Shown piece by piece: positions 23,592 through 62,465 of a DNA stretch of 64,000 bases (positions within the stretch are counted from its first letter, which is position 1; each line of letters opens with the position of its first letter). Made by a program: the position numbers and the translations under genes. The notes beneath the pieces are model-generated. The model was not told where the DNA came from and made no database searches. It saw only the letters and a program-made list of their open reading frames with translations. The DNA comes from Gamsiella multidivaricata (taxonomy: Eukaryota > Mortierellomycota > Mortierellomycetes > Mortierellales > Mortierellaceae). The DNA lies in assembly GCF_025024155.1 (NCBI RefSeq), contig NW_026251766.1, positions 186,001 to 250,000 on the forward strand. Reading direction: 5' to 3'.

Positions 23592-26500
23592 ATGGCATTC
23601 AACATCTCTGACGAGGATGACCCCCACCACGACGAATTTGACGAGTATACGGATGCGAAGCAGCCTGCCCGTCCGAAGTTCTACCGTCGCCGCAAGTTCT
23701 GGATCTGCTGCATCCCCACAACCATCATCGCTGTCGTCGTCATCGTCGTCTTGGCCCTCTATGTGATCATGCCCAAGATTGCCCAGGGTCTGATGAACAA
23801 GGCCACCATCAGTTTCTCACAGATTGTAAGCCCTACAATATCAACATCAGAATCAGCACCAGCGCAAGCACCAGCATCAACAAAAAAAAAAAAAAAAAAA
23901 AACCCCTCGTCTGGATCGTCATTTCTTCGCTAACTCGCCTTTCTTTCTTCTTTTTTTCTTTCTTTCCTTTTGCAATCAACCAGGACATCGCGAACCCTTC
24001 ACCCACGTCTATGGACATTGTCTTACAGGGCGACATGCACAATACCGGTCCTTTCCATGCGGAAATCTCCTTCCCTGGCGCCGTTGCTGTCTCTTGGAAC
24101 AATCTCCAGCTGGGTACCACCGAAATTCCAGGCTCAAGCTCGGCTTCGTGAGTAAAAATATGCACTTTGCGTCCCTGGCACTGCTGTTAAACCATTATCG
24201 GCATTCTGACCAACCCATTACATCCAACTTTATTTCACTACTCCAATAATACCTACAGTGGTGGCCATGGTGCTTTGAACATGCAGAGCAGTTTCGTTAT
24301 CACCAACGCCACTGCCTTCTCAGAGTTCTCGAGCTATATGCTCAATGCCCAGTCATTTGTCTGGCACTTTGAAGGCAAGATTAACGTCAAGGCCCTGGGT
24401 CGCAGCGTCAAGGACCTCGTTCTGAAGAAGGATATCACCGTCAATGGTAAGCATCCGCACCACTGTGCTCTCTGGCTTCAAAAAGCATCACAATCACCTG
24501 CAATCGTACCCACCTCTTATCATTGCTTTGACTATTACCTCTCGTAGCATTCAACGGCCTGTCCGGCGTCACTATTCAAAAGTTCTCGCTCCCTGGCGAT
24601 GACCCCAACGGTAACGGTATCATCATCGAGATCGAATCCAGTGTCACCAATCCCTCAGCGATCCAGATGTACATGGGTGATCTAACATTGGCCATCTCGT
24701 ACAAGAACACTCTCATGGGCTATGTCACTGCCAGCAACCTGACTATGGTCCGCGGTCCCCAGATCTTGAGCATGAAGGGTGTTTTGATTCCGCAGAACGC
24801 CACTGAGGGTCTGGCCGATACGTCCGAAATGATGTCGCGCTACATCGGCAATGTCGTAACCGATACTATCGCCACTGGTTACGAGGTGAAGCCGGACGGC
24901 GTCAACCCGCTCGATTGGTTGTCTTCTGCGATCAAGAGCCTTAAGCTGACTATTCCCTTACAGAGTCCCCAGCCTTTGCAGCTCATCAAAGCACTGGACC
25001 TTGGCGCTCTGGGACTCGTCTTCACTCCTCCTACCGCCTACCAGCCTGCGACGACTTCAACAGGCGTTCTCGCCAACTACAGTCTTCCCGATGGCTTTGG
25101 TTTCAAAATTCAGTTCACTCAGGTCGCTAACGAGCTCACTTTGAGTCGTAACAACGTTACCATCGCCAATCTCAACTCGTCCTACAGCCCTTCGACTTCC
25201 GACGCGAATGCTGGCACTCTCAACTTCAACTTATTGGCTACTCCCCTGAATGTCCCTGAGGAATCCCACCAAGTGTTCCAAGAGTTCAACCGCGACTTGA
25301 CCATCGGTTCCAACCTTCCGTTCAATGTTGTCGGCAAGGCCTCGGTCTTTGCCAACACCTCGATTGGAACAATCAATCTCGTCAACATTCCATTTAATGC
25401 CTCTACTCAACTTGGTGGTCTCCAGGGCCTGGCCAATCCTGCGCCAACCATCACTTCCCTCCAGGTCGTGTCCAGCACGGCGAATGATCTGACCATGGCT
25501 ATCACCGTCGTGATTGTGAACCCCTCCTCAATCTCGTTAAACGCGGGTGACGTTGTGCTCGATCTCGTGTACAAAGGCGTCCGTCTCGGAACCGTAGCCA
25601 TGCCTAATCTAGCCATTGTCCCTGGTGCAAACACTGTCAATGCCTCGTCCACCATCGACCCTGCTGCCTCCCCTGAGGGACTTGAGCTCTTGAGCCTGTA
25701 CACCTCTGGTACCGGTGCTCCGGTCAACATTGTCGGGACTTCTGCGAGCACTGCTATTGACTCGCTGATCCTTGCATTTAGTACTCTGGACATTGGGTCT
25801 GAGGTGCCCGGTCTCCAATCCAAATTATTGGCCGGTGCCTCTTTGGTAGTTCTTGACACGACTCTCACCAATGGAATCGCCCAGACTACGGTCATGGTCA
25901 ACAACCCCTTCATCCCACCCATGGCCATCCTGTCTATCGACTGCAAGATCACCTACAATGGCGTCTCGTTGGGAACACTCGTCTCTACCTTCAGTAACCC
26001 ACCAGTGATCCCTGGAGTCGGCCAGGGTACGATCACCGCTGGCTTGGCCATGAACACCGACCCTACCGATCTCGTAACCCTGATCCGCGCTCAAGCCCAA
26101 AAGAACGGCATGGATACTGATGTCTTTGACGGTCTACTCTCGCTGAATCAGGGCGGTAACCCTCCCTCTAGCCTTTTTGACGGCTTCAACATCGCAGATT
26201 TCACGATCAAGGCTATGACCGGTCTCGCAGTCGACATCGCCATGACTACGACCGTCAAGTTGGGCGACTACCAAGTGACGATTCCTTACACTCAAACTGG
26301 CGTCGCCATTGCTACAGACCAGTCCATACTGAGACTGATTCCTATCGTCGGCACGCCCATTGCTCAAATATTGGTGGAGCGCGCGGTCCTTGCGTTCAAT
26401 TCCATCGATATCCTTGCTCCAGAGGAGACCGGCTTCCAAACCGACATTGTTGGAGCCATCACCGACACTGGTCCATTGGATGCGCAGATCCAATTCGTTA

Positions 26501-28740
26501 GTGCGGTGACTATTTCATACGCTGGCAAGGTGATCGGATCCATGATGATGCCGACTGTAAACGCGACTGCCAACAAGGGTGCTGAACTGAACCTGGCTGG
26601 CGTGGCCTTCACGGTGATAGACCTCGCAGCATTCACGGACTTCAACATCTTTGCATTGAACAACGCCAAGTTTGACTGGACCATATCTGCTGAGAATATT
26701 GTCGTGAACGCCCTGGGTGTCGCTCTTCCCGGTGTGACCATGACCAAGACGGTGACCCTAGACGGATTCGACAAATTGGCTAGCCTGCAGCTGTCAAGCT
26801 ACATCATTAACAGCATCGATGCTACAGGAATGCACATGGTCATCAGTGCCTCGATTTCTAACCCGTCGACCATCGGCATGACCATCCCGACCTCGATCTT
26901 CAACACAATTTTCCAGGGCAAGGTTCTCGGACCAGCCGTCGCCAAGGGACTTGCGCTTATTCCTCACGGCACCTCAAGCTTCGCCTTGAATGCGACCATC
27001 GCGACTGGCCTCGGCGACATGAGGCCCTACTTGACAGGCATCTTCCACAACGCTTTGAATAATGTATCGACTGAGCTCGACGCCCAGGGTGCGGGCGCCC
27101 CTGGAATCTCGTGGCTGGACGCGGCAGTCAAGACACTCAATCTCCATACTGCGTTGCCGCCTCTGTCGCTGCCGCCAATCGAATCCGTCACGATCGATGC
27201 CATGTCGATGGACTTTGCTTGTGATACCTGCGTCTGGACCCCTAACGTTGTCTCGGCCATCACTGCTAAAACTAACCTGCCTTTCAGCAACGGTGCACCC
27301 ATCATCCAGCTCAGCCAGCATATCCAGATTCTGGACAAGAATGGCCAGCTCGTGGGGACACTGAACACCCCTTATGCCCCCGCGAATGCCTCTAGCAGCA
27401 TGGTGTCGACTACGACTCCCTTGGCACCTTTGGTTATTGCTGATGGCTCGCATGAAATCTATGAGGCCTTTATTGGAGATTTGAACGCCGCCACGACGTA
27501 CGAATTAGGTTTGAGCGGAACGACTGATGCCATCCTTGACTTGGGAGAGCTCGGCCAGATCGAGATCCAGGGGATCAACCTTGACGTCAAGACTCCGCTT
27601 GATGGTCTTCAAGGACTGAAAGTCATCGAGTTCCTTAACCCACTCGGTATGGGTTCAGGCGAGCATAACGGCATCCCAACCATCGATATGACCGTACTCG
27701 TCAACATCCATAATCCCAGTAAGCTCACACTCAACATCGGAAACCTCGTGTTGAATGGCGGTGTAAATTACACGGAGGAAGGATATCTCGGTACCACATC
27801 AATCAATAACTTGCAGCTGGTACCAGGGGACAATCGATATGTTTCTCTGGCGTCGCTCAGCGTTCTTTCACCCAATATGGAGGATTTCCTCATGTCGGTC
27901 CTCATGAGCGGCAATGTTTCCACGCTGTATCTGCAAGGATTTTCTGATTCGTCGAGCAACCCTGCTCTTTCAGCTGGATTAAAGGATCTTCGAAGCGAGA
28001 TTGGTATTCCGCCAAACTTCAAAGTTCCAAATGCTGGTTATCCATACCTCAACAACACAGTCAAGATCAAGGTCCTGCCAACGACGGTGGACGACGGCTT
28101 GGTCGAGATGTCGATGGACTTCCGCAGTATGTACTATGGAGCCACGGTTCACTTTGATGACGCCGTTGTTGACCGGGATCGATTCGAAGCTCCTTTCAGC
28201 AACGTCGCCCTTGCTGCCACCACCGGAGCTCCAGTACCAGTGTTTGCTTTCATGAGCAACTTTCAGTTTTCCGTAGGCGGAAATGACATCAAGACCGTCA
28301 CTTTCAAGGTCAATTTTACCGATGCGATTGAACCTAGCAACCCTCTGAGTCGCGATAAGTTAGTGGGGATGGTAGAACGCTCTAAGTCGGGATATGTGAA
28401 CAGTTCCATCGACTTGTACCCGACTATCCACTTCAATAACGACCCGACACAAATGAATGTCGATTGGACCTCGGGTACATATTTCCCTGAGACCGGCGGA
28501 ATCATCCCTATTCAGACTGGCCCAGACTTTGCCTTGCTTCTCAACTGGTGGGACAAGAACCATCCAGAAGCGGCCGCGATTTTGGACCCAGTTTCATCCG
28601 TCACCACGACGGTAGCTGCCACCTCGCCGGCGACCGTCTCTCCGCTGCCTGTTGCGACGACCACAGCATCAAACCCCACCCAAACGACGGCTGCACCCAG
28701 TTTTACGCCCTCGCCAAGCACAGCTCCCATAACGCCATAA
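23592..28740 (+). CDS. Large single-pass membrane protein with repeated DUF3712/Tag1-like domains
   Basis: Four exons in phase: 23592-23825, 23984-24147, 24259-24446 and 24548-28740 (1592 residues). The acidic cytosolic N-terminus (MAFNISDEDDPHHDEFDEY) is followed by a basic stop-transfer patch RRRKFW and one membrane segment at about residues 38-60, so it is a type II protein with a long lumenal or extracellular part. The rest is made of recurring beta-rich units with the pattern V-N-P-S followed by L-G-x-V/T and IPG, for example SSVTNPSAIQMYMGD, VVIVNPSSISLNAGD and ASISNPSTIGMTIPT. This is characteristic of fungal DUF3712 (LEA-2-like) proteins, including the vacuolar-membrane protein Tag1. 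Many NxS/T sites are present, and the C-terminal 60 residues are a Thr/Pro/Ser/Ala linker. Tag1 has been linked to vacuole acidity and autophagy termination. That function is only an inference here, and a wall-facing protein is an alternative. Confidence 0.8.
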
Positions 28741-28889: not shown

Positions 28890-29385
28890 TCCTGTAATCA
28901 AGGTGTGCATATTGCTTCGCCGTAGTTTTATTGCAATGAAGGTAGATACTTTCATAGCAACATGAACCTACTTTCTTTGATCTGACTAGGTGGCAAAAAG
29001 GTTGCAGTCTTCCCCAATGAGGTTGCGAATCGCATAGCATTACCGTCCAGCGGCAGTAGGCTAATTTCATCGCGCCCAACCTCTGATCTATAGATGTAGA
29101 CTGATCAGTAGTATTCGCAGTTGGCAGTGCCGACGAGATCGTGCTCATGCCTCCCAACTTTTCTTCAAGGGCAAAAATTTAAGCTATGAGGGCGTCCTTA
29201 CGCTCGGAAGTCGCTAGCTCTGCCTCGAGAGCAGCGATTTTTGCTTTCAGTGGATCGACAGTTGCATTACTTGAGAGTTGTACTGTAGATGCAGCGTCAA
29301 GGAGTGCAGAGCCGAAAATTGCAAGTGACATTGCGGCATTGATCGTCACAGTATCTGTCTATCAAATTTTGAAAGAAGGTTCCGA
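28890..29385 (-). pseudogene. Short coding relic with coiled-coil segment
   Basis: A minus-strand frame reads DTVTINAAMSLAIFGSALLD, then LKAKIAALEAELATSERKDA, a TAA, then IFALEEKLGGMSTISSALP and onwards. The heptad-like LKAKIAALEAEL is coding-like, but an in-frame stop splits it. It has no recognised family. It lies directly beyond the 3' end of Fanzor relic B, and could be a fragment of the sequence into which that gene inserted. Confidence 0.3.
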
Positions 29386-29629
29386 CCCCCTATGATTATG
29401 CTGATGGCATGAACTTGGCAGGCCGGCACTGGTTCTGGATTTGCGACAGACACACGGTGGCAACGTTCTCAGAGCTGACAATATCACGATCAAAGTACAT
29501 TTGACAGCTTCGGCAGTACTTTGACCGCCTCTTGTCGGACTCCAAGAACGCCATACACTGGTCACGAGGGCACCGAGCACTGGTGTAGTACTAATGCACC
29601 CCGACCACAATGTATCCCATAGTCTTTGC

Positions 29630-29724
29630 CTAGCAGCAACGCCAAGGAACAAATAAACAGATGAGAAAAAGTTGCAGTGCGGATGAGAGATGGTATGCCA
29701 TACTTTCTTTTTTCTTCTTCTTAC
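29630..29724 (-). other. Intron in Fanzor relic B, position shared with relic C
   Basis: A 95-base GTAAGA...CTAG intron falls after a Lys codon and directly before AKTMGYIVVGV. The 94-base intron of relic C falls at the equivalent place, after Lys and before ARSLGYIVVGV, in the same phase. Confidence 0.75.
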
Positions 29725-31349
29725 CTTGCCGACAAATTTCTTCTCGGGCGAATTAAAAGAGCCCAATCCTATCGCAAACACCACTTTTACGCCATCCTGC
29801 GAGCTCAGCAGCTGACCAACAAAGTCCTTGCTAACGGCAAGGTCAAGCAAGACCGCAACTGCGTAGTCATACGTTGCCTGTTGAGCCTTTTGAAGATCCC
29901 AGCGCTTCCTTAGCATCCATTGACTGTGGTAAATGTCAAAAATGCGGACTCTTGTGGTGGTCGCGGCGGTGCCGTCCGTGCCAGGCGCCTCCAGATACGC
30001 TAGATATTCCTCGATCTTCTCCACGGTAAATGCGGGCAGTCTTGCCTCAAGAACATCAATGCGTGCCGCGGCCTTCTGCTTTTCTGGGAGGCGTTTGAAG
30101 AGCATGTAAGGCCTGTGGAGGAATGCCCTGCGGATTCGTGAAGACTCTCTTTTCGTAGGTAAGGCGGGATCGACTCTTGTCGCTGTCATTGTGTAAACCT
30201 CACCCGGGTCAATGCCGATGACCACAGTATCGCCTGGTGGGCAAGTACCAGGAGAGTTGAGGCGCACCTCCACGTTCTCTAGAATCTTTGAACCTCGCTT
30301 CCAGTTGATGGCGTTGCGTGTGACATCGATCGTATCTGCGCCTGATGTTGTACCAGATGAGGCTTCTGAATTGGATGAGGGCGAAGCAGCCACAGTAGGG
30401 TCTGCAGGTGGCAGTTGGTGTATCGACAGCCTCTGCCGCTTTGAACTTTCTGGCATCAAAGACGGGAGCGTGATGCGTTTCTTCTTGGCGGGTCCCGTCG
30501 CTGATGCGACCGGATCTGTACCAGGTTCGCCCCCTCTATTTTCAAGAAACGCGTCGTCGAGGTCATAGTCACCGTCAACATCGTGGAACAGGGTCAAATC
30601 CTCGTCGTCGTCGTCGTCGTCGTGTCCACCTTCATCGTCGTCATCACCCCTGATGCTTTGATGGGGTGCTCGGCGTCGCGTTGTCATTGTGTCATACGCA
30701 AGAAGATGCAACACCAGTCCGTTCGTGCAGATGACGCCCCGAAGCTTGAACCTTGTGTGGTGCTGTCTGTCACTCTGAAGCGAAGCCTTCTTGTAATACC
30801 CATCAAAGTGCGTCGCCGGATCCAGTCTGTATAGCAGCTTCTCGATGAGGATCCCTTTCTTGCCGACAACCTTGGCTTCCGCAGTGTAGGCTGCTGTATC
30901 GCTCAGCAATCGGGCTATAATCGACCGTGCCTTATCGCTTGTATAGAATAAATGGACAAGGTCCGCCTCTGACAAGAACATGAAGCCAGCTGCAAACTTT
31001 GCCTTGACAAAGTCTGCAAACATGCGCTTCTCGGTATTCTTTTCGAAGAAGTAGTCGATCGGATTTACATATTTGGGGCGCCCTTCATTCTCGGAAAACT
31101 ATTTAGGAGTGTTGAAAAGCTAATGGTTAACATTAGTGCTCCAAAAAGCAAGGACACAACGGCTACATTTTGCATACTCTTTAATATACCTTTGCGCCAT
31201 AGTAATGGACTCGCACTGCATTGTAGACTGCCGCAACAGCAAGCCTCCAGACCGTCAAAGGGAACATCTCTGGTTCTTGCTGGCAAAAGGGGACAAAGCC
31301 GGCGAGCGTCGTGTACGCATCAAAGACACGTCGGGCATGGGTGACTGTT

Positions 31350-31452
31350 GCTTGTGCTTGTGCTTGTGCTTGTGCTTGTGCTTGTGCTTGTGCTTGTGCT
31401 TGTGCTTGTGCTTGTGCTTGTGCTTGTGCTTGTGCTTGTGCTTGTGCTTGCG
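31350..31452. repeat. (TGTGCT)n hexanucleotide repeat, about 17 units
   Basis: Near-perfect CTTGTG/TGTGCT units. On the minus strand, in the phase of Fanzor relic B, the repeat encodes alternating Gln-Ala between the N-lobe and the segment HARRVFDAYTTLAG. The other frames give Ser-Thr/Lys-His or Cys-Leu, which explains the odd long frames seen here on both strands. Confidence 0.95.
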
Positions 31453-33261
31453 GTTGCGGGGCAGCAGGGACCAACGGCGTATTTCGAGTGCTTATTCTGA
31501 GCGCAGGGGCAATCGATACTCGAACAGCCTGGGAACCTCGTCCTTCTTGACCACTGCACAAGAGTGTGTTGAGTGCAAAGTAGAAGGCCTTGCTGTTGAT
31601 AATGTCTGCATGTCCTCCGTCCGCTGTGATACATCTGTCGCTATGTTTTTGGAACGAACAAGCCGCGCGATATCCAGTGCAATGACCTCGTACATATGCA
31701 TCTAGATCGCGTTAAGGATCGCAACCGCTGAACGTAGCCTGTCTGAAAGGAGCTTGCTTTCTGCAGCCGATATCCGATCCATTCGCTTTATGTTGGCCCG
31801 GATACTCCCCACAGTGAGTGCCTTGGTTATATGCAGCTTGCGGAGGCGGCGGTCCGCTGCAGTTGCAGAAGCGGGCCTTGGGTTCGATGGGTTGGCGAAG
31901 CCCGCCCCTTTCCGCTTCCTCAGCAGTGCCCCCTTCTTCCTCTTTTTCTTGTTCTTTTTCGCGACCGCCTTCTGAGTCTTAACGCGGGGCTTTGCTTTTG
32001 GCTGCAGGCGATCGTGAGATACGGCAGTCGAGAAGTCAATCGATTGTCGTGGTAGGATCGATTTCTTGTCAGAAAAGATCGGCCGGAACTGGTTGCGCTT
32101 TGATTTCCTCGCAACGTAGAAGGGAACCGCACTAGTAAGTACACACATGCATCGCCATGCAAAGGTGTTAGAGAACTTGTTGTCTGTACAACACGCGCGT
32201 GAATGAAGTGGTATCGCACTTAAATTACCTTCTACTCGCATGCTGATATGCAGTGACGGCAAATCGTTCCGCCTTAAAGTGCCGGAACTGCGGCGATGCA
32301 ATGTTAAAATCAAAGCCGAGCATGTCCTCATCGGCGGCCTCATCTCCTGGCTGCGATTGGAGCACTTTCTCCTCGAGACCCAAAAAGATGTCTTCCGATG
32401 GCTTGAATCGGGTCTGGTCGATATCCTCATGGGTTTTGATGGCTGCCGTGAACCTGTAAGCATCGAGCATCTGGCGGATATCGGGCGACTAGGGAAGAGC
32501 GCGGATGATTTCCAGGTTGCGAACTATTCCAAGGCCGGGAATGTTCTCGGTATAGTCGTTCTTGGACATGATGCCCAGCAGCGTCACATAGTCTGCGCTG
32601 GGAACCTGGAGTGCATTGGTAACACTCTCCTTGGTGTACAACGCATAGGCTAGGCCGAGGGAGATCGGCTGCAAACCCTTGGTGATCGACGGATATATCA
32701 ACAGACCGGAGTCGGCTGACACCACGAAGCGATCGGTTGCTAGGGCTAGTCTGCGTGCAATGCAGGTGTAGGCCTCGCTCCTGCAAGTGCAGACAGAAAA
32801 CCCCTTTTCTCGTAAGGGAGCGTCAGCTTGGCAACCGTATCAAATCTGTACACATCACGGAGGCCCTTCTTGATCTTCATTACCACGCTCTTCGAGGTCC
32901 ATTGGCCGCTCGACGACTTCGTGCTCATGACTTTCAAATTCGCCTGTAACTTCTCGAGGTCCGCTGTCAGTCTGTTCTTTCACCTGGTGTGCTCGTTCCG
33001 CTTCTGCTGGGATGGGGCGCCATCGATGTGAATCGTACATTGCGCAGGGGTAAAGTCCTCCGCCAAACGCACTGCCATCGTGAGACCGACAGTTCAGACC
33101 TTGCTTGGGTCGTAATCATCCGTGATCTGGCGAACGGGGAATCCATAAAACACACCGAAGAGGTCAACCCCAACAGCTTGGTTCTGGTAATTTTGAGGAT
33201 CCGCGGCATCTGGATCCAAACCGCGCTTCTTCAGAGTACTGTAAAAGCCTCTTATGCCCAT

Positions 33262-34424
33262 GCCATGATCACTATGGTGGGTTGACAGCTTAGCAGGGTT
33301 AGTGAAACCCTCTCATGACGCTGAAGATATGCAAGGATAGGCTTGGAGGGTACATTACCTTTTCTATAGGCGTATGGTATCTAGCGTGAAGGCGTATATG
33401 GATGGCGAACTACGGGCGAAGGGCGATGAGGAGAAAGGATGACGAATGAAAGGTAGGAAAATGTGCTGTTGTGGTGTCGCGAATAGACGAATGCTGCCGC
33501 TTGCGCTGAAAGAGTGAACGAAAAAGAAAGGAAAGATGGTTGTGGACTGTGTGGCAGGCTGAAAAGATGAAATAAAAGTATGGTGAAGAGATCTGCGAAG
33601 TGTGTGGCGGAATACTTCCAATAAAAAAGGCTTTGATAAAGAGTCATCACACTGATGGATGCCGGTCTCTTGACACGAAGCGCGATCAGTGTTTTACAAG
33701 TAGCTTTGCCACGGCCTGACACAGATGTTCACCCACATCGCCATCACCGCTGTTTCCAACGTACGCGGGGCAGGCGCAAATCCAGATAGGTCGCTAGGGA
33801 TGCAATTGAGGGTAGGAAATTAGTCAAGTAACGCGGTCAACCTTCAAAGTTTGGTAAACTTGAATTATTTGGCTGGTCTCGTAAAACTGATAATAAATTA
33901 CGAGGAAGAGCATCGCCCCAGAAAAAAGAATAAACCGTCTGATTCCTGAACCAGAGTCTCTTCTTCACATATATATCTTGTACCGCATTTTGCATTCATC
34001 CAGATTGTCCGGATAACACCGCATCATCGGCAGACACTGACTACCGTCGTCAGCAACCGACGCAACGAGATACAATCAACAGGGAATGCCAAGCCTGATC
34101 ATTCGCCACCTTTGCACCGTCAATCGCAACGTTTCCCCAATCTCCGATCGTCTCATTGAGCATCCATCATTGGCGCCCATCATCAGACGGCGTTATAAAG
34201 GTACAATAGAGGTCTGATCAGCGAACATTGCCATACAACGACTCCAGAGGGGTGGACTCGATTGTCACTTCATCGGACATCATATGCGAACACCTTGCAA
34301 CTACCCCAGTCATTCTCAATGGAACATAGTCCTCGCTCGAACCATTTAGCTAAACAACCCCCCACATTTATTTCCTTCCATTTCCGTCTCGTCTATTTTA
34401 CCTTTGTTCATTGCATTTCGATTA
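33262..34424. other. Spacer between Fanzor relics B and C
   Basis: About 1.15 kb with no supported gene. The first 400 bases are the likely promoter side of relic B, purine-rich on the plus strand. The two relics are divergently oriented across this spacer and the MITE that follows. Confidence 0.5.
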
Positions 34425-34659: not shown

Positions 34660-37140
34660 AACTGTGGAAAACCTCAAGATCAACTTGAAATGGAGAGTCC
34701 TCAAGGCTGCCGTTGAAGCCACAAACAAGGCCAACCAATTGCTCACACGAACCGTATCCACTTCGACAGTCCGGCTGCGTCTTCGAGAAACCGATCTGAT
34801 AGCGAAGAGGCGTGTAAAGCAGCCAGCTCTAAAAAAAACAGCATAGGGTTACTCGAGACTATCTGAAGTCAATGAATGTGACTGAAGGCTTCTCTACTGG
34901 CCTGTACAGTCGCCTGACCATACCCCAATCGAGCACATGTGGTAGTACCTCGAGATTCGGCTGGAAAAGTATCCTACTCCTCCAGGAAGCTGTCAGGAAC
35001 TATAGGACTAAATATCTGTTGAATGGTACAAGATCTCAGTGGAATACTGCCGTGAACTCGTCAGGAGCATACCGAGGAGGCTTAAAGCGGTTCACAGAGA
35101 AAAGGGCATGCATACAAAGTATTAGTCTATCTCATGGCCTCTGGAGATGTACGGCAGATATGTTTTCTGCAAGGCACACAGTAATCCAACGAGGGGCCGT
35201 GCGGGAAACGGAACATTGTAGCAGTTTTCGATGGCACCGTATTAGATGTGGGAGCATTGAGCTCGGGAAAAGCCACAGTAAACGTTTCTAGCTATACATG
35301 TGGGAACTACTGAAGACACTAGAAGGAACTACAACACTAACGTCGACGGCATGTTCATAATGTTCATAATGTTCATAATAGCTGCAAGCCAAAAAGGCGA
35401 AGGGCCTAGTAGCAGAAGGATCTCGTACCGAAGTTGACCCGAGTCTTCCAGCGATTGAGAATTTCATGCTCTTGAACCACTCTAGCCAGAGCTACCGCAA
35501 GACGGCTCCACTTGCGGGGCCAGAAAAGTCTCTCATGTCTTTTTCCGAGAGAGAACTCTGCATTTTGTTCTGGCGGAACATAATTCTGCAGACATATCTT
35601 CGAGAATTGATACAGGAGGATTCACAAGCACAAACACGTCTTTGTCCCAGTCGGATATAATTTTGTGGCTTCAGTCAAAGCCTGCCGGCGCCATCATTAC
35701 AAAACTACTCTCGAACGTCGGCGGGTCAGAACCACGCAAAGGGCCCAGGAGTTTCAAGGACTCAGATTCCATGATGGACTTGGACGATGCGAGAGCACAT
35801 TCAATCCTTTCGGCAGGCCAACTTTGATCTAAGGGATTACACCGAACGCGGCTATGCCCATCGAGGCTCCATTCGTACAGATGGATTCCGCCTGCAGCTG
35901 CTAGTTTCAAGGTGAAGGAACTGTATTCAGTCAAATACAGACGTCTTCCGGAGAATGTCGATTGGCCGCTACACTTGGTGGGGTGGACTGTTTCTTGACC
36001 GAGATCCGAAACATTGTGAAGAGTAAGCAGGATGTCATCGACCTTTGGAGTTGTGCGCCCGATCAGGTCAGGGTTCTGGGTATCGATAGGGGCCAAGCGT
36101 GTGTCGTGGGTGCCAGCGTGTTGCTGACCGGAAACCATGATTCCGGCAGCGCGGTGACGGTGACTGGAGAAAAATGCGAAAATGCGATGATGTGGATATG
36201 GCCAGCACTTCCGAAGACACCTCTCAGTCTTAGGTTCCCGTTACTTTTCGCAATCTCGCAGTTAAGCAAAAGGCCGTCTACCAGCCTACATTCAAGCATC
36301 GAAGATGGATGGAAGAGCAGAAGAATATCGTGCCAGGCGATGGAATTAAATCCATTAGCTGCGTTGAGACAAGGCTTCCACCGCTGCGCGGTCAGGGTGC
36401 CAGCTTCACGAACCATGTCGTAGAGATGGAGAAAGTGAAAGAGCGACTACATAAGTTTTACAGCGACAACAATCGCTTCAAGAAGCATAAGTGGGACGCA
36501 AGAAGAGCGCGAGATGCCGAATACAGACTCATTACAGAGAGTCTTCCCAGGGCAGTTGGAGGAAACATCGGCAGGAAAAGGGATGAGACCAACAAGGTTG
36601 TCATTGGAGTCGGTCTAGGCTTCCCTCATTGCACAAGTCCTTCCATATTGCACGAGTCCTTCCAGTCCTACTTTGTTCAAAAAGTAACGCATCATCAAAC
36701 AGGTATGCAGATCTGTATCATGTTTGGATATTGTGCTGGCGTTATTGATGCTTTTTTTTTTATTAACGCCCACATAGGCCAGGTCACTTGGATACATCGT
36801 GGTTGGAGTGAACGAATACTACACGTCCAAGAAGTGTCCAACCTGCGAGCAATTTGTCGGGGAGGCAGAGATCCGTAGGTTGTATTGTAAGACTTGTAAG
36901 ACTTTCAAGACATACATGCACCGCGATGTGATGTCTGGTCATAACATCTGCAATGTTATTCGTGGGTATTTGCTCCATCAACGGCGACCAGCATATCTCC
37001 AACCAGTGGATGACAGCGGGAACTACCCTTGGGAGCAAGCTGCGAAGTCGCAGACAAATACTAGCACCAGCACCAGCACCAGCATGAGTCCTATCAATAG
37101 TGTTAGCAATTCGAGCATTAGTAGCATGGCTTCTGGATAA
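34660..37140 (+). pseudogene. Fanzor relic C (C-terminal nuclease half well preserved)
   Basis: From about 35960 the reading is clear: EIRNIVKSKQDVIDLWSCAP, then RuvC-I RVLGIDRGQACVVGASVLL (Asp 36085-36087). A frameshift and a TAG (36231-36233) follow. Next come NLAVKQKAVYQPTFKHRRWM, RFKKHKWDARRARDAEYRL, VVIGVGLGFP and SYFVQK. A 94-base intron (36684-36777) leads to ARSLGYIVVGVNEYYTSKKC. The Glu codon 36814-36816 corresponds to the relocated catalytic Glu. The zinc ribbon is CPTC...CKTC, followed by RuvC-III MHRDVMSGHNICNVI (Asp 36925-36927) and a Ser/Thr-rich tail to the stop at 37138-37140. The 5' half (34660-35950) is frame-shifted and full of stops. Short pieces such as TERGYAHRGSIRTDGFRLQL remain readable. 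Fanzors are RNA-guided DNA nucleases related to TnpB. Any guide-RNA region would be expected near the 3' end. Confidence 0.75.
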
Positions 37141-58980: not shown

Positions 58981-59093
58981 GTAAAATCGGGTTGATCGTG
59001 GTGCACTCATTTCTTCTACAAGCAACATCGCCAAAAGAGCCATGCCACTCTTTTAAATTTGCCCTTCGCTTTCCTTAGCACTTTTTTTACACC

Positions 59094-60621
59094 ATGCCTC
59101 CATTTCGCGACTATTCTCGCCACCGAAAGACTCCGCGAGCACTGATACTTGAAGCATTGACACGCCTTGAATTCCAACTATTCCTTGACGCGTCCCAGAA
59201 AGAGATGTTTACAATCACTCCTCTGTTCCTGAAAGTGTTCATCACAAAGCATTTTTTTAAAACCAACAGATACCTCAATCCAAGGACACCAATCTTCAAG
59301 TCGTCGACCTACCGGGACAAAGTCCTTACCACGGACAATGGGACCCTCTTCCAAGATGCTCTACGGTTATCTCCCGAGCAGTTCGAGTACGTGCTCGAGA
59401 TCATTCGAGATCACTCGGTGTTTCAACGTCAGGGGAAGAAGCCCCAGATGGATGTCGCAATCCAGCTGAAAGTTGGCCTTCATCGCTTAGCACACGACGG
59501 ATCATTGGTTTCATACAAAGCAATCGGTCGAGTATTGGGCGTAACTGAAGGGACAGCCATCAAGTACTCCCAGCGGGTCATCGAAGCACTCTGTGCCCAT
59601 ATCTCGAGATTCGTTTCCTGGCCCGATGTCGAGGCGAAGGCTATCATCAAGGCGGTTTTCGCGAAAAAGGGTTTCAAAGACTTGCTTGGGGCCATTGACG
59701 GTACCTTATTTCCTTTATACCGTGTGCCTTCAATGGACAAGAACAGCTGGGCAACAAGGAAAGGCAACTTCGCAATGGGCGCGACTGGCGTCTGTGATCA
59801 TCGAGGAGTTTTCATCTTCTTTTCCACGGGATACCCGGGGAGCAGACATGACTCCGCAGCGTATAAGGACACCGAGCTCTATCGCTTCCAGAACCGGTAC
59901 TTCGAGGGAGACGAATACATGGTCGGTGATGCGGCGTATGGGCTGTCACCTACTCTCATGACAGCCTTCAAAGGCGCTCTTACGCCCTGTGGTGTTCCAA
60001 CCTGGTGTGGGGCTTGGGCACTATGTGCCTGAGTCGCACCTCCATTTTTATTTCTACGACGTATTAGCGAGTCTTCTGTGACTAGTAACTACAGGGACTA
60101 TAAAAGACCTGTTGGTACCTGTCATCAATAAAACCTTCTCTTGTTCTCGTTGACTTCAGTCCGATTGTTTAATTAGTAAGTTAACTCCTAGAGAATATCA
60201 CACGCCCAACAAGATCAAATTCAACAAAAAACTCAGTGGAACCCGGACGAAAGTGGAGCATGGCTTTGGTCTACTCAAAGGACGATTCAAATCCCTCCGC
60301 TGCCTTAGAATCCATATCAACAGCAACCAGAGCGTCTTTGAGGCAAGTAGGCATGTAGCGGCTTGCGTTGTCCTGCGCAATATTCTTTTGACGAGTGGGA
60401 TTCACAATCCGTATGAAAAAGAGACTGAGCGATGGATACAAGAGGAGGTCGAGGAAAGGAGGGCGAGGGGCACGATTGCAGAAAATGACAGTGGTAGCGA
60501 GGGTGGTAGTGACGACGATAACGACGATGAGTTGACTCCTGCTCAACAGAGACAGATGCGTGAGGAGGCATTAAACAAACGAATCACTATCATGGCCGCA
60601 GTTTTACAAAGAAGACGATGA
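59094..60621 (+). CDS. PIF/Harbinger DDE transposase
   Basis: Exon 1 starts at 59094 (MPPFRDYSRHRKTPRALILE). It contains an N-terminal helical DNA-binding region (SYKAIGRVLGVTEGTAIKYS) and the first two catalytic aspartates: GAIDGTLFPLYRVPS and, after GSRHDSAAYKDTEL, VGDAAYGLSPTL. Reading on unspliced meets a stop at 60032. The protein must continue after an intron of roughly 170-200 bases ending near 60180, with exon 2 carrying REYHTPNKIKFNKKLSGTRT, KVEHGFGLLKGRF (the third catalytic acid, Glu) and an acidic tail to 60621. The donor is not certain; a GGT|GTTCCA site near 59991 with an acceptor before TTAACTCCT keeps phase. The DDE_Tnp_4 fold and the spacing match Harbinger transposases, which cut and paste DNA together with the Myb-like partner. 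Confidence 0.85.
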
Positions 60622-60644: not shown

Positions 60645-62465
60645 TTAGTGATGATACTTGGATGAACTTCCACCGCCAGGACTTCTCTGCGGGCTAGGAC
60701 TACATCTCTGTGGACTTTGTGAAGATCTCTGTTGCGTTACTCCCGTGTACTGCGCTTTCGCCAATTCCGCCTCTGCTCTCTTCATCTCTGCGGCTGCCTT
60801 AATTTTTTCGATCTCCAACTTCATCCTTTCAGCCTCCATTTCGGACTTCAGCTTCAAGGTCTGCATCTCGATGAATCGTATCTGCGCTTCTTGATACCGG
60901 CGATTATCCTCGATTGCCCTCTCCTCGATAGCCAGTTTCTGTCGTTTGAGCTCGTGCGCTGTTTCAGATATGTCAGATAAGTTCTTGAGCATGGCGACGT
61001 AATCCGACCCTTCATTTCCACGCTTGTTGGATGTCTTGGCCGGTGTCGTTGAGCTCCGGTGTCCGCGTACAGCGCTGGTTTCTGGGAGTCTATTGGGAGA
61101 GTCCGGCGGTCCAGCTCCAGTGCCTTGCCCGTCGCTCTCGTCGCTAGTGATGTCGTTGTCGTCCGGAATAGGTCGGTTGAGGTTGCCGGTAAGCTGATAG
61201 GGCTCCCTTGGGTTCAAGGACCAAGACGCAGACCAGACCTCGACCAAGATGTAGTAGAAGTGACAAATTTGGATGACCTTCTCCTTCAATGACTTGTTGG
61301 GCAGGTCTCCATTGCCGGTCTTGTTGAGAGCCAGGTTAGCCCTCTTCCAGACTTTCTTCATGTTATCGATCTTGTTCTTGATCTGAAAGCCATCAAGGGT
61401 TACCGGCTTCTCCTCCGTGGAAAACTTGAGATTGACCTTCTTAGCAATGCCTTCACGAACCTCGGTCTTAGGCATGTGGTAGCTGTTTCTGTCACTTGGA
61501 CCGTCCAAAAGAGACCAAGTCTCTGGGTCCGCAAGCAGCTCTGCGATATACGTCTCCTGGTCCATTGTGAAAACATGTCCTTTCGACCTCCCCTTCGCCT
61601 CTGACTGAGTAGGCGCGGAAGGCCGTCGAGGCAGTTTTTTTGGGACTGCGGGGGAATTGGAGGATACGCTGCTGGCAGTTAAAGTCGGGGAAGGGAATGC
61701 TGCCGAAAGCAGAGGAGAACGTAGTGATGAGGCAACAGAGACCGGTGATGACATATGGTCTTGAGGCTGCGAAGGATACGTCAATTGAGAAACATCCAGG
61801 GGTCCCATGTTTGACGCAATACCAAGGGAGGCAGCGGTCGTTTGCAAAGGTCCATAGCGTGTGCCTGGCGCTGAATGGGTGGGGAACAAGGGATTATCGC
61901 AATGCTAGAAAAGAGACGCTTGTCACCATCTGCAACGAGGCTACAGTCTGACAAGAGAAAAGGTGTCGCGTGTTTTATTTACCTGACTCAGGGCCTGCAG
62001 CCGAAGAAGCTCCAAAGTAGAAAACTGCTGCTTTCGATGCAGTTGCTCTTGGTACTGTTGGTTCCTTGGGTACAGCTGATGCTGTTGATACTGTTGAGGC
62101 TGTTGAGGCTGCTGGTGTTGTTGAGGCTGTTGGTGTTGTGACTGTGGTGGTTGCCGTAGCTGGGACTGATGATGTAGAACGTCGCGAACAGGATCGTCAG
62201 AGAGTTGCTGCCGACTTTGCTGTTGTTGAGGTCGTCTGCTCATTCGAAAAAAGTCTTGGTTTGTTGCTCCATTCTGATGATAGAGACGACGAGATCGAAT
62301 GCTCGAGCGGGTCAATGGAGTTTCCTGCTCGGGGTCAGATTCTTCTGCCCTGCTGATGGTAGGCGCAGGTAAAACGTCGTACTCAGGTGGGCGGGGAGTG
62401 AGGGGAGGGGAAGAAGGAGAACTGGAGTCAACCTCATTGGTAACAGTACGTTGCTCTTGCGACAT
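60645..62465 (-). CDS. Harbinger-associated Myb/SANT-like DNA-binding protein
   Basis: Two exons in phase: 62465-61983 and 61904-60645 (about 580 residues). Exon 1 encodes a Ser/Pro-rich then Gln/His-rich segment (QQPQQHQQPQQPQQYQQ). Exon 2 carries a trihelix/Myb-like domain: FTMDQETYIAELLADPETWS, then VREGIAKKVNLKFS, QIKNKIDNMKKVWKRANLAL, and a Ser/Thr/Pro linker. A long helix rich in Glu, Arg and Lys (LKSEMEAERMKLEIEKIKAA) and a basic/Ser tail close the protein. Autonomous Harbingers need such a partner for nuclear entry of the transposase and for binding the element ends. It is convergent with the transposase gene, only 23 bases apart. The domain is normal length, with no lesion seen. Confidence 0.8.

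Follow-up and report, generated by a model that had tools for sequence, protein, structure and literature searches.

A predicted XPG-Fanzor fusion protein in a repeated element of Mortierellaceae-like fungi

The FEN1/XPG (RAD2) family comprises cellular repair enzymes that cut 5' flaps, bubbles and junctions. The TnpB proteins of IS200/IS605 and IS607, which are bacterial and about 400 amino acids long, make cuts that help their elements persist via repair from a copy. To our knowledge, all TnpB, Fanzor and Cas12 proteins on record rely on a single RuvC site for cutting DNA, and the host deals with the resulting ends. According to the accessible text of PMC11423790, most Fz1 proteins have 600-700 amino acids, and PpFz1 from Parasitella parasitica carries a RuvC insertion (FRI) domain of about 100 amino acids that binds cyclophilin and is the closest published case of an added domain that was found. 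PpFz1 resembles the protein described below as a fungal Fanzor1 with an extra domain, but the addition here is a whole second nuclease of the XPG type, placed at the N-terminus together with a basic linker. No description of an XPG-Fanzor fusion was found in the accessible text of the open-licence PMC literature (including PMC3627910, PMC10432273, PMC10711439, PMC11423790, PMC11071296 and PMC12719977), nor did the papers there that pair Fanzor with a flap endonuclease or FEN1 report one, in agreement with an earlier note on this locus, whose author knew of no such publication.

The earlier note was made from the window, i.e. the whole stretch of 64,000 nucleotides that was analysed, and proposed that an XPG-type nuclease is joined in frame to a Fanzor across an intron. 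The motifs on which it relied are present on the minus strand between 33261 and 29396 in the order given. The reading starts with MGIRGFYSTLKKRG (from 33261) and continues through XPG-type acidic motifs, an H3TH-type motif (KNDYTEN, codon start 32563), an intron, a Lys-rich linker, RuvC-I (GIDPGEV, codon start 30216), a zinc ribbon and the RD motif of RuvC-III to a stop codon ending at 29396. This copy is badly damaged. Its in-frame stops number five or more, of which exon 1 carries three, exon 2 one and exon 4 one near its start; exons 1 and 2 each have a net frameshift, as judged from the exon lengths, and two XPG catalytic positions are altered. The comparison of the window's own pieces with Pfam stayed under the cut-off, at 12.4 bits for XPG_N (22 required) and 23.8 bits for TNB (26.3 required); in the genome search with PF07282 the same locus reached 29.5 bits and was above it. 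The window copy is a dead relic, left by the decay of a mobile element in a Mortierellaceae-like fungus, and the question of a fusion is undecidable from the window by itself.

Further copies came from the genome of 37.5 Mb, where overlapping loci were joined into 15 close copies, counting that of the window. The Fanzor piece and the XPG piece matched at the same genome positions, and both halves were found in 14 of the 15 copies, 13 having both parts and C25 having the XPG part with a remnant of the Fanzor end; only C50 consisted of the Fanzor part without XPG. All 15 were damaged, truncated or incomplete to some degree. Internal gaps or inserts occur in some of them, for example in C93. Outside these exceptions the similarity takes in the 5' non-coding part and both halves unbroken and breaks off sharply soon after the stop codon, and the halves have therefore spread as one block.

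Alignment of the copies gave a gene model with four exons, all on the minus strand of the window. Exon 1 (32229..33261, start codon at 33261, limits from comparison with the copies) encodes the FEN1/XPG-type nuclease half and is followed by the predicted intron 1 (32132..32228, 97 bp). Exon 2 (31190..32131) contains the Lys-rich linker and the start of the Fanzor N-lobe and was aligned to the database protein P0001 over the junction. Copy comparison placed a putative intron 2 of 91 bp at 31099..31189, before exon 3 (29725..31098) with the Fanzor N-lobe and RuvC-I, whose frame is open in the window copy, and a putative intron 3 of 95 bp at 29630..29724, before exon 4 (29396..29629) with the C4 zinc ribbon (TNB), the RD motif of RuvC-III and the terminal stop. 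The earlier note was thus right about the order from XPG to Fanzor and about an intron between the halves, but its limits of 32127-32229 for this intron were wrong, and it named neither the two further putative introns nor the stops and frameshifts in the window copy. The donor of intron 1 was GTAA in all 14 copies having the region and the acceptor AG in 12 of the 14, being lost in C126 and C142; its length was 97-99 bp in the nine copies measured. The donor of intron 2 in C139 was GATA and not GGTA.

With predicted splicing, copy C166 gave one frame of 1,174 codons (1,175 with the terminal stop) comprising XPG, linker and Fanzor with one internal stop. In each of the eight remaining copies that were spliced, 9 to 45 stops were counted, frameshifts being disregarded. 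The exon 1 frame was open in C139, C126, C115b and C175; the start motif was looked for in C115b and not found. The ratios pN/pS for exons 1-4, obtained from 28 pairs among eight copies, were 0.53, 0.55, 0.55 and 0.42, values near 0.5 that are moderate only; this measure blends past selection with decay. Shifted frames gave 0.58 to 1.03, the first shifted frame of exon 3 (0.60) being hardly different from the true one. The XPG and Fanzor halves were similar in pN/pS.

The same layout is frequent in this genome. A search with PF07282 (E<=0.001) gave 109 TNB matches, and the XPG matches paired with them were taken from two genome searches, both of which are lower bounds. An XPG match lay upstream on the same strand within 6.5 kb for 56 of the 109, at a distance of 2.7-3.4 kb in 43 of these 56, compared with 3/109 for XPG matches downstream and 5/109 on the opposite strand as controls. 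At least three diverged subfamilies have the layout in common: A, to which the window copy belongs, B (C98, C126b and C93 at 972 kb) and C (C24 and C44). Introns in subfamily B are at other places than in A. Copy C126b of subfamily B has an uninterrupted frame of 483 codons that leads from the XPG end across the linker and on into the Fanzor N-lobe, its correspondence to the alignment of 37 proteins described below being judged by eye. Two subfamily B copies are 99.3% identical across 2.3 kb, a sign of recent spread. Seven of the 53 TNB matches without an XPG match were inspected (C33, C106, C31, C10, C109, C107 and C145). In C33 and C10 the sequence ends at the contig end. The other five had no XPG within 3.5 kb, their similarity starting inside the Fanzor part or the linker, and may be either truncated or truly devoid of XPG, two cases that are indistinguishable here, above all for C107 and C145.

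Relatives were also found in the protein databases, where the entries are gene predictions and each search scored the approximately 8,000 candidates with most words in common. The read-through of C166 as query gave four proteins, P0001 to P0004 (P0004, from M. antarctica, is partial), and the first of them, a protein of 1186 amino acids from Mortierella alpina, matched 100% of the query with 40% identity. When P0001-P0004 were used as queries, P0005 (1121 amino acids, 69% identical to P0001 along its entire length) and P0006-P0008 were added; among these P0006 is an entry labelled partial, and P0007 and P0008 are short ones. A diverged subfamily B copy as query gave 30 further proteins, about a third of them marked partial, from organisms named Dissophora, Benniella, Linnemannia, Podila, Entomortierella, Haplosporangium, Gryganskiella, Actinomortierella and Mortierella. 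For three of these taxa membership of Mortierellaceae was confirmed, and the remaining ones presumably belong there as well. The source annotations call the proteins hypothetical, unnamed or TNB domain-containing. P0001 and others align unbroken through the XPG/Fanzor junction, and the single proteins with XPG, basic linker and Fanzor in this order that the earlier note had proposed to look for thus exist among the predictions, P0001 and P0005 included. The mark of independent genes named beforehand, a stop and a new start lying between about 32.2 and 31.8 kb in every intact relative, was not seen. An origin of the join by chance or as an artefact of one locus was ruled out by the 14 copies together with the database proteins. 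Relatives having both halves in a single protein are very probably distributed across Mortierellaceae, a family of soil fungi, judging from these sequences.

Of the 38 proteins 37 were aligned, P0008 being excluded. All ten catalytic residues, seven of the XPG/FEN1 type and three of RuvC, were present in 15 of the 37, with lengths of 1,121-1,502 amino acids, and the sole departure in the whole set that was not a gap was in P0003. The seven FEN1-type acidic columns were conserved in 22/22 to 30/30 proteins, depending on the number with a residue aligned. One of these columns is Asp in 26/26. FEN1 has Glu, its second, at this position. In the RuvC half the Asp of RuvC-I was kept in 35/36, the Glu before the TS motif in 30/30 and the last Asp in 26/26. 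The first Asp of P0017 lies in a badly aligned stretch and may be misplaced. The present protein is like the FEN1/XPG family in its seven acidic residues and H3TH-type motif, and unlike it in having Asp for the second Glu and in being part of the protein of a repeated mobile element.

One of eight proteins scanned against Pfam, P0012 from Benniella, was above the cut-offs (in brackets) for XPG_I with 26.2 (24.9), XPG_I_2 with 28.2 (24.2) and TNB with 45.5 (26.3), and the other seven were above the cut-off for TNB and below it for XPG. At E<=0.01, 28 of the 37 proteins matched TNB, 9 matched XPG_I and 7 matched XPG_I_2. At E<=0.1, guided_TnpB was matched in 28/37 and fen_arch in 23/37, so at least 14 of the 37 match both; the score of P0001 against guided_TnpB, 22.1 bits, is far under the cut-off of 100. 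The C166 read-through matched TNB (OrfB_Zn_ribbon) with 34.2 bits against a cut-off of 26.3, and P0001-P0004 were all above this cut-off. When the N-terminal part was used as a profile against the PDB, RAD2 was found with 2.6e-13, in addition to FEN1, XPG, EXO1 and GEN1; in that search the C-terminal part matched LaTranC only, with 0.0076. A profile of the RuvC half built from nine proteins matched TnpB-like L79 (1e-6), SpuFz1 (2.2e-5), TnpB and Cas12f. The nearest solved Fanzor is accordingly SpuFz1 of Spizellomyces punctatus (PDB 8gkh), which resembles the present protein in the C-terminal RuvC/TNB half and ranks after L79 through weak stretches, its value of 2.2e-5 being that of the whole sequence and its single stretches scoring 15.5 and 4.1 bits only.

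In the RuvC-half alignment residues 935 and 1000 of the SpuFz1 chain stand opposite the Glu and the final Asp. Both numbers are 394 above the catalytic residues E541 and D606 given in the accessible text of PMC10432273, a common offset that we infer to come from a tagged construct. The Fanzor1 motif as stated by Bao and Jurka in the accessible text of PMC3627910 is D-X(125,275)-[TS]-[TS]-X-X-C4 zinc finger-X(5,50)-RD, and P0001 has it as D948, T1124-S1125, C1128/C1133/C1148/C1151 and R1157-D1158. The C-terminal half is provisionally filed as Fanzor1 because it shows these features, which are testable at the level of the sequence. With TnpB the protein has the TNB zinc ribbon and the RuvC residues in common, but TnpB does not have the XPG half. 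Taken together, there is little doubt that the intact gene would encode one predicted protein of about 1,100-1,500 amino acids, in which a basic linker joins a FEN1/XPG-type 5' structure-specific nuclease at the N-terminus to a TnpB-like Fanzor1 at the C-terminus.

The element is sharply bounded on its right side. The right end TAGACA(G/T)ATAC(T/C)GT(A/G) was found in 13 of the 15 close copies and lies in the window at 29347..29363 (minus strand), differing by 1 mismatch from the motif seen elsewhere, with unshared sequence beyond it. The flank past this end differs among copies, except that C139 and C171 have it in common. The left end AC(T/A)GTGACGG was seen in C171, C139 and C142, and C25 was added by a DNA match; C166 begins 11 bases inside it and several copies begin further in. 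The 5' non-coding part common to other copies occupies 33262..34422 (minus strand) in the window, where the shared sequence ends at about 34422, and reaches further upstream in some other copies. Measured in four copies, the distance between the conserved left block and the right end is 6.1-6.3 kb. In appearance the ends are short and weakly inverted, the right one reading inward (T)ACAGTATCTGTC. No perfect terminal inverted repeat was found. A search with the right-end 17-mer at up to 1 mismatch gave 14 places, of which 12 were right ends of known copies and two lay in contig C99; the 12 inspected places gave no inverted partner at the left ends, and perfect terminal inverted repeats were rejected. 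The right ends finish in TA in 12/13 cases. No clear target duplication was found, as the left flanks of three copies were inconsistent, with TG, GT and TG before the shared ACTGT/ACAGT. A scan of two ORFs from the 5' part for a transposase or second gene showed no transposase and gave one weak Pfam match under the cut-off. The right-end region folded no better than shuffled sequences (z -0.21, -0.47, -1.56 and 0.11), so that a guide RNA is putative and suggested by the family.

The earlier note suggested that the flap nuclease could trim or process ends at the break and so aid insertion or copying of the element, which is plausible. The most likely way for the two nucleases to work together can be proposed as follows. 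A putative guide RNA would be made from the right end of the element and its flank, and with it the Fanzor half would open and cut a matching target, e.g. an empty site. The tethered XPG half could then cut the remaining 5' flaps, R-loop or bubble junctions, or 5' ends, which would hinder simple rejoining and favour a repair that copies the element from another chromosome. As a whole explanation, a fusion carried by a mobile element in which a guided cut is followed by XPG processing of ends or flaps in favour of copying may equally well prove right or wrong, and the division of labour in it, with the Fanzor half cutting the guided target and the XPG half processing what is left over, is put forward somewhat more tentatively.

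The same fusion could alternatively have an XPG half that acts on RNA and trims the guide RNA or the 3' part of the source mRNA, leaving the DNA to the Fanzor alone. The XPG superfamily does include relatives acting on RNA, the linker between the halves is highly basic, and XRN_N was weakly matched in P0028 (14.0 bits, under the cut-off). This role is nevertheless unlikely, since the closest solved relatives are the DNA nucleases RAD2, FEN1, XPG, EXO1 and GEN1, the seven acidic residues are kept and the fold test of the right end found no guide RNA whose ends could be judged. It is likewise rather doubtful that a TA-specific DNA transposase acting in trans moves the element, the XPG-Fanzor protein helping only in retention and the XPG half being an accessory repair enzyme. 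The short, weakly inverted ends and the TA at the right ends would suit such a transposase, and a precedent exists in the Fanzor1 proteins reported from Mariner-type elements with TA duplications in the accessible text of PMC3627910; the absence of a perfect inverted repeat and of a consistent duplication at the three left flanks argues against it. Very improbable is the case of two neighbour genes, in which the XPG frame would stop just inside 'intron 1', the Fanzor would start at an ATG there and the database fusions would be prediction errors: the unspliced frame does run into a TAA where exon 1 ends, and 12/14 copies have, just before the acceptor, an ATG that shares the frame of exon 2, so that intron retention could give separate halves, but the database proteins cross the junction without a break, the open frame of C126b in subfamily B spans it as well, the AG and the ATG frame are both absent in two copies, and the annotations of many genomes, though predictions, concur.

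The preferred reading is a single fused protein with a DNA-processing XPG half. A natural chimera with an added structure-specific 5' nuclease, and with both catalytic sets kept in diverged subfamilies, makes testable what Fanzors do for their elements, as the halves can be inactivated one by one, and it could serve as a model for building editing enzymes that govern how the cuts they make are processed. It is a bold and at present improbable extension that XPG-Fanzor elements are transposase-free, RNA-guided selfish genes, in which one protein would find and cut the target by means of RNA and its own flap nuclease would ready the ends for copying-in. If true, this would amount to RNA-guided homing in a eukaryote, and a single fungal genome would hold about a hundred Fanzor-type loci of the system.

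Many copies of the XPG-Fanzor element end at the same point on the right and begin at different points on the left, as was seen in the copies C93, C27, C1 and C115b, in the window copy, and also at the loci L067 and L068. The introns are nevertheless retained, which means that plain reverse transcription does not account for this pattern. The copies C139 and C171, assembled from the loci that overlap L051 and L062 respectively, share a right flank, with about 97% identity through the flank, but their left flanks differ. Contig C99 carries two further matches to the right end, at 364901-364917 and 392661-392735, beyond the 15 copies studied.

Inside exon 2 of the window copy, an expanded hexanucleotide repeat of the CACAAG type lies at about 31345-31455, and one of its frames codes for Ala-Gln repeats. 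The window copy adjoins a second Fanzor-type relic, which belongs to the diverged subfamily B and lies in the opposite orientation (35460-36948, plus strand). This relic has a RuvC-I-like sequence, GIDRGQACVVGA, and a match over the cut-off to TNB, the zinc-ribbon domain of TnpB/Fanzor; none of the XPG matches listed from the genome searches belongs to it.

Reading of the sequence also gave an uninterrupted plus-strand frame of 1,402 codons (24532-28740), with a Thr/Ser/Pro-rich C-terminal end, which terminates about 0.6 kb from the right end of the element. Farther away are a DDE_Tnp_4-type transposase gene (59079-60032, plus strand; 57.8 bits) and an adjoining divergent gene (60645-61904, minus strand) for which Pfam gave no domain at E<=0.01; neither has a link to the XPG-Fanzor finding.

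TNB/Fanzor-type loci were found at 109 places in this single 37.5-Mb fungal genome, with the Pfam cut-off for TNB marked as exceeded at 104 of them, which is a very large load.
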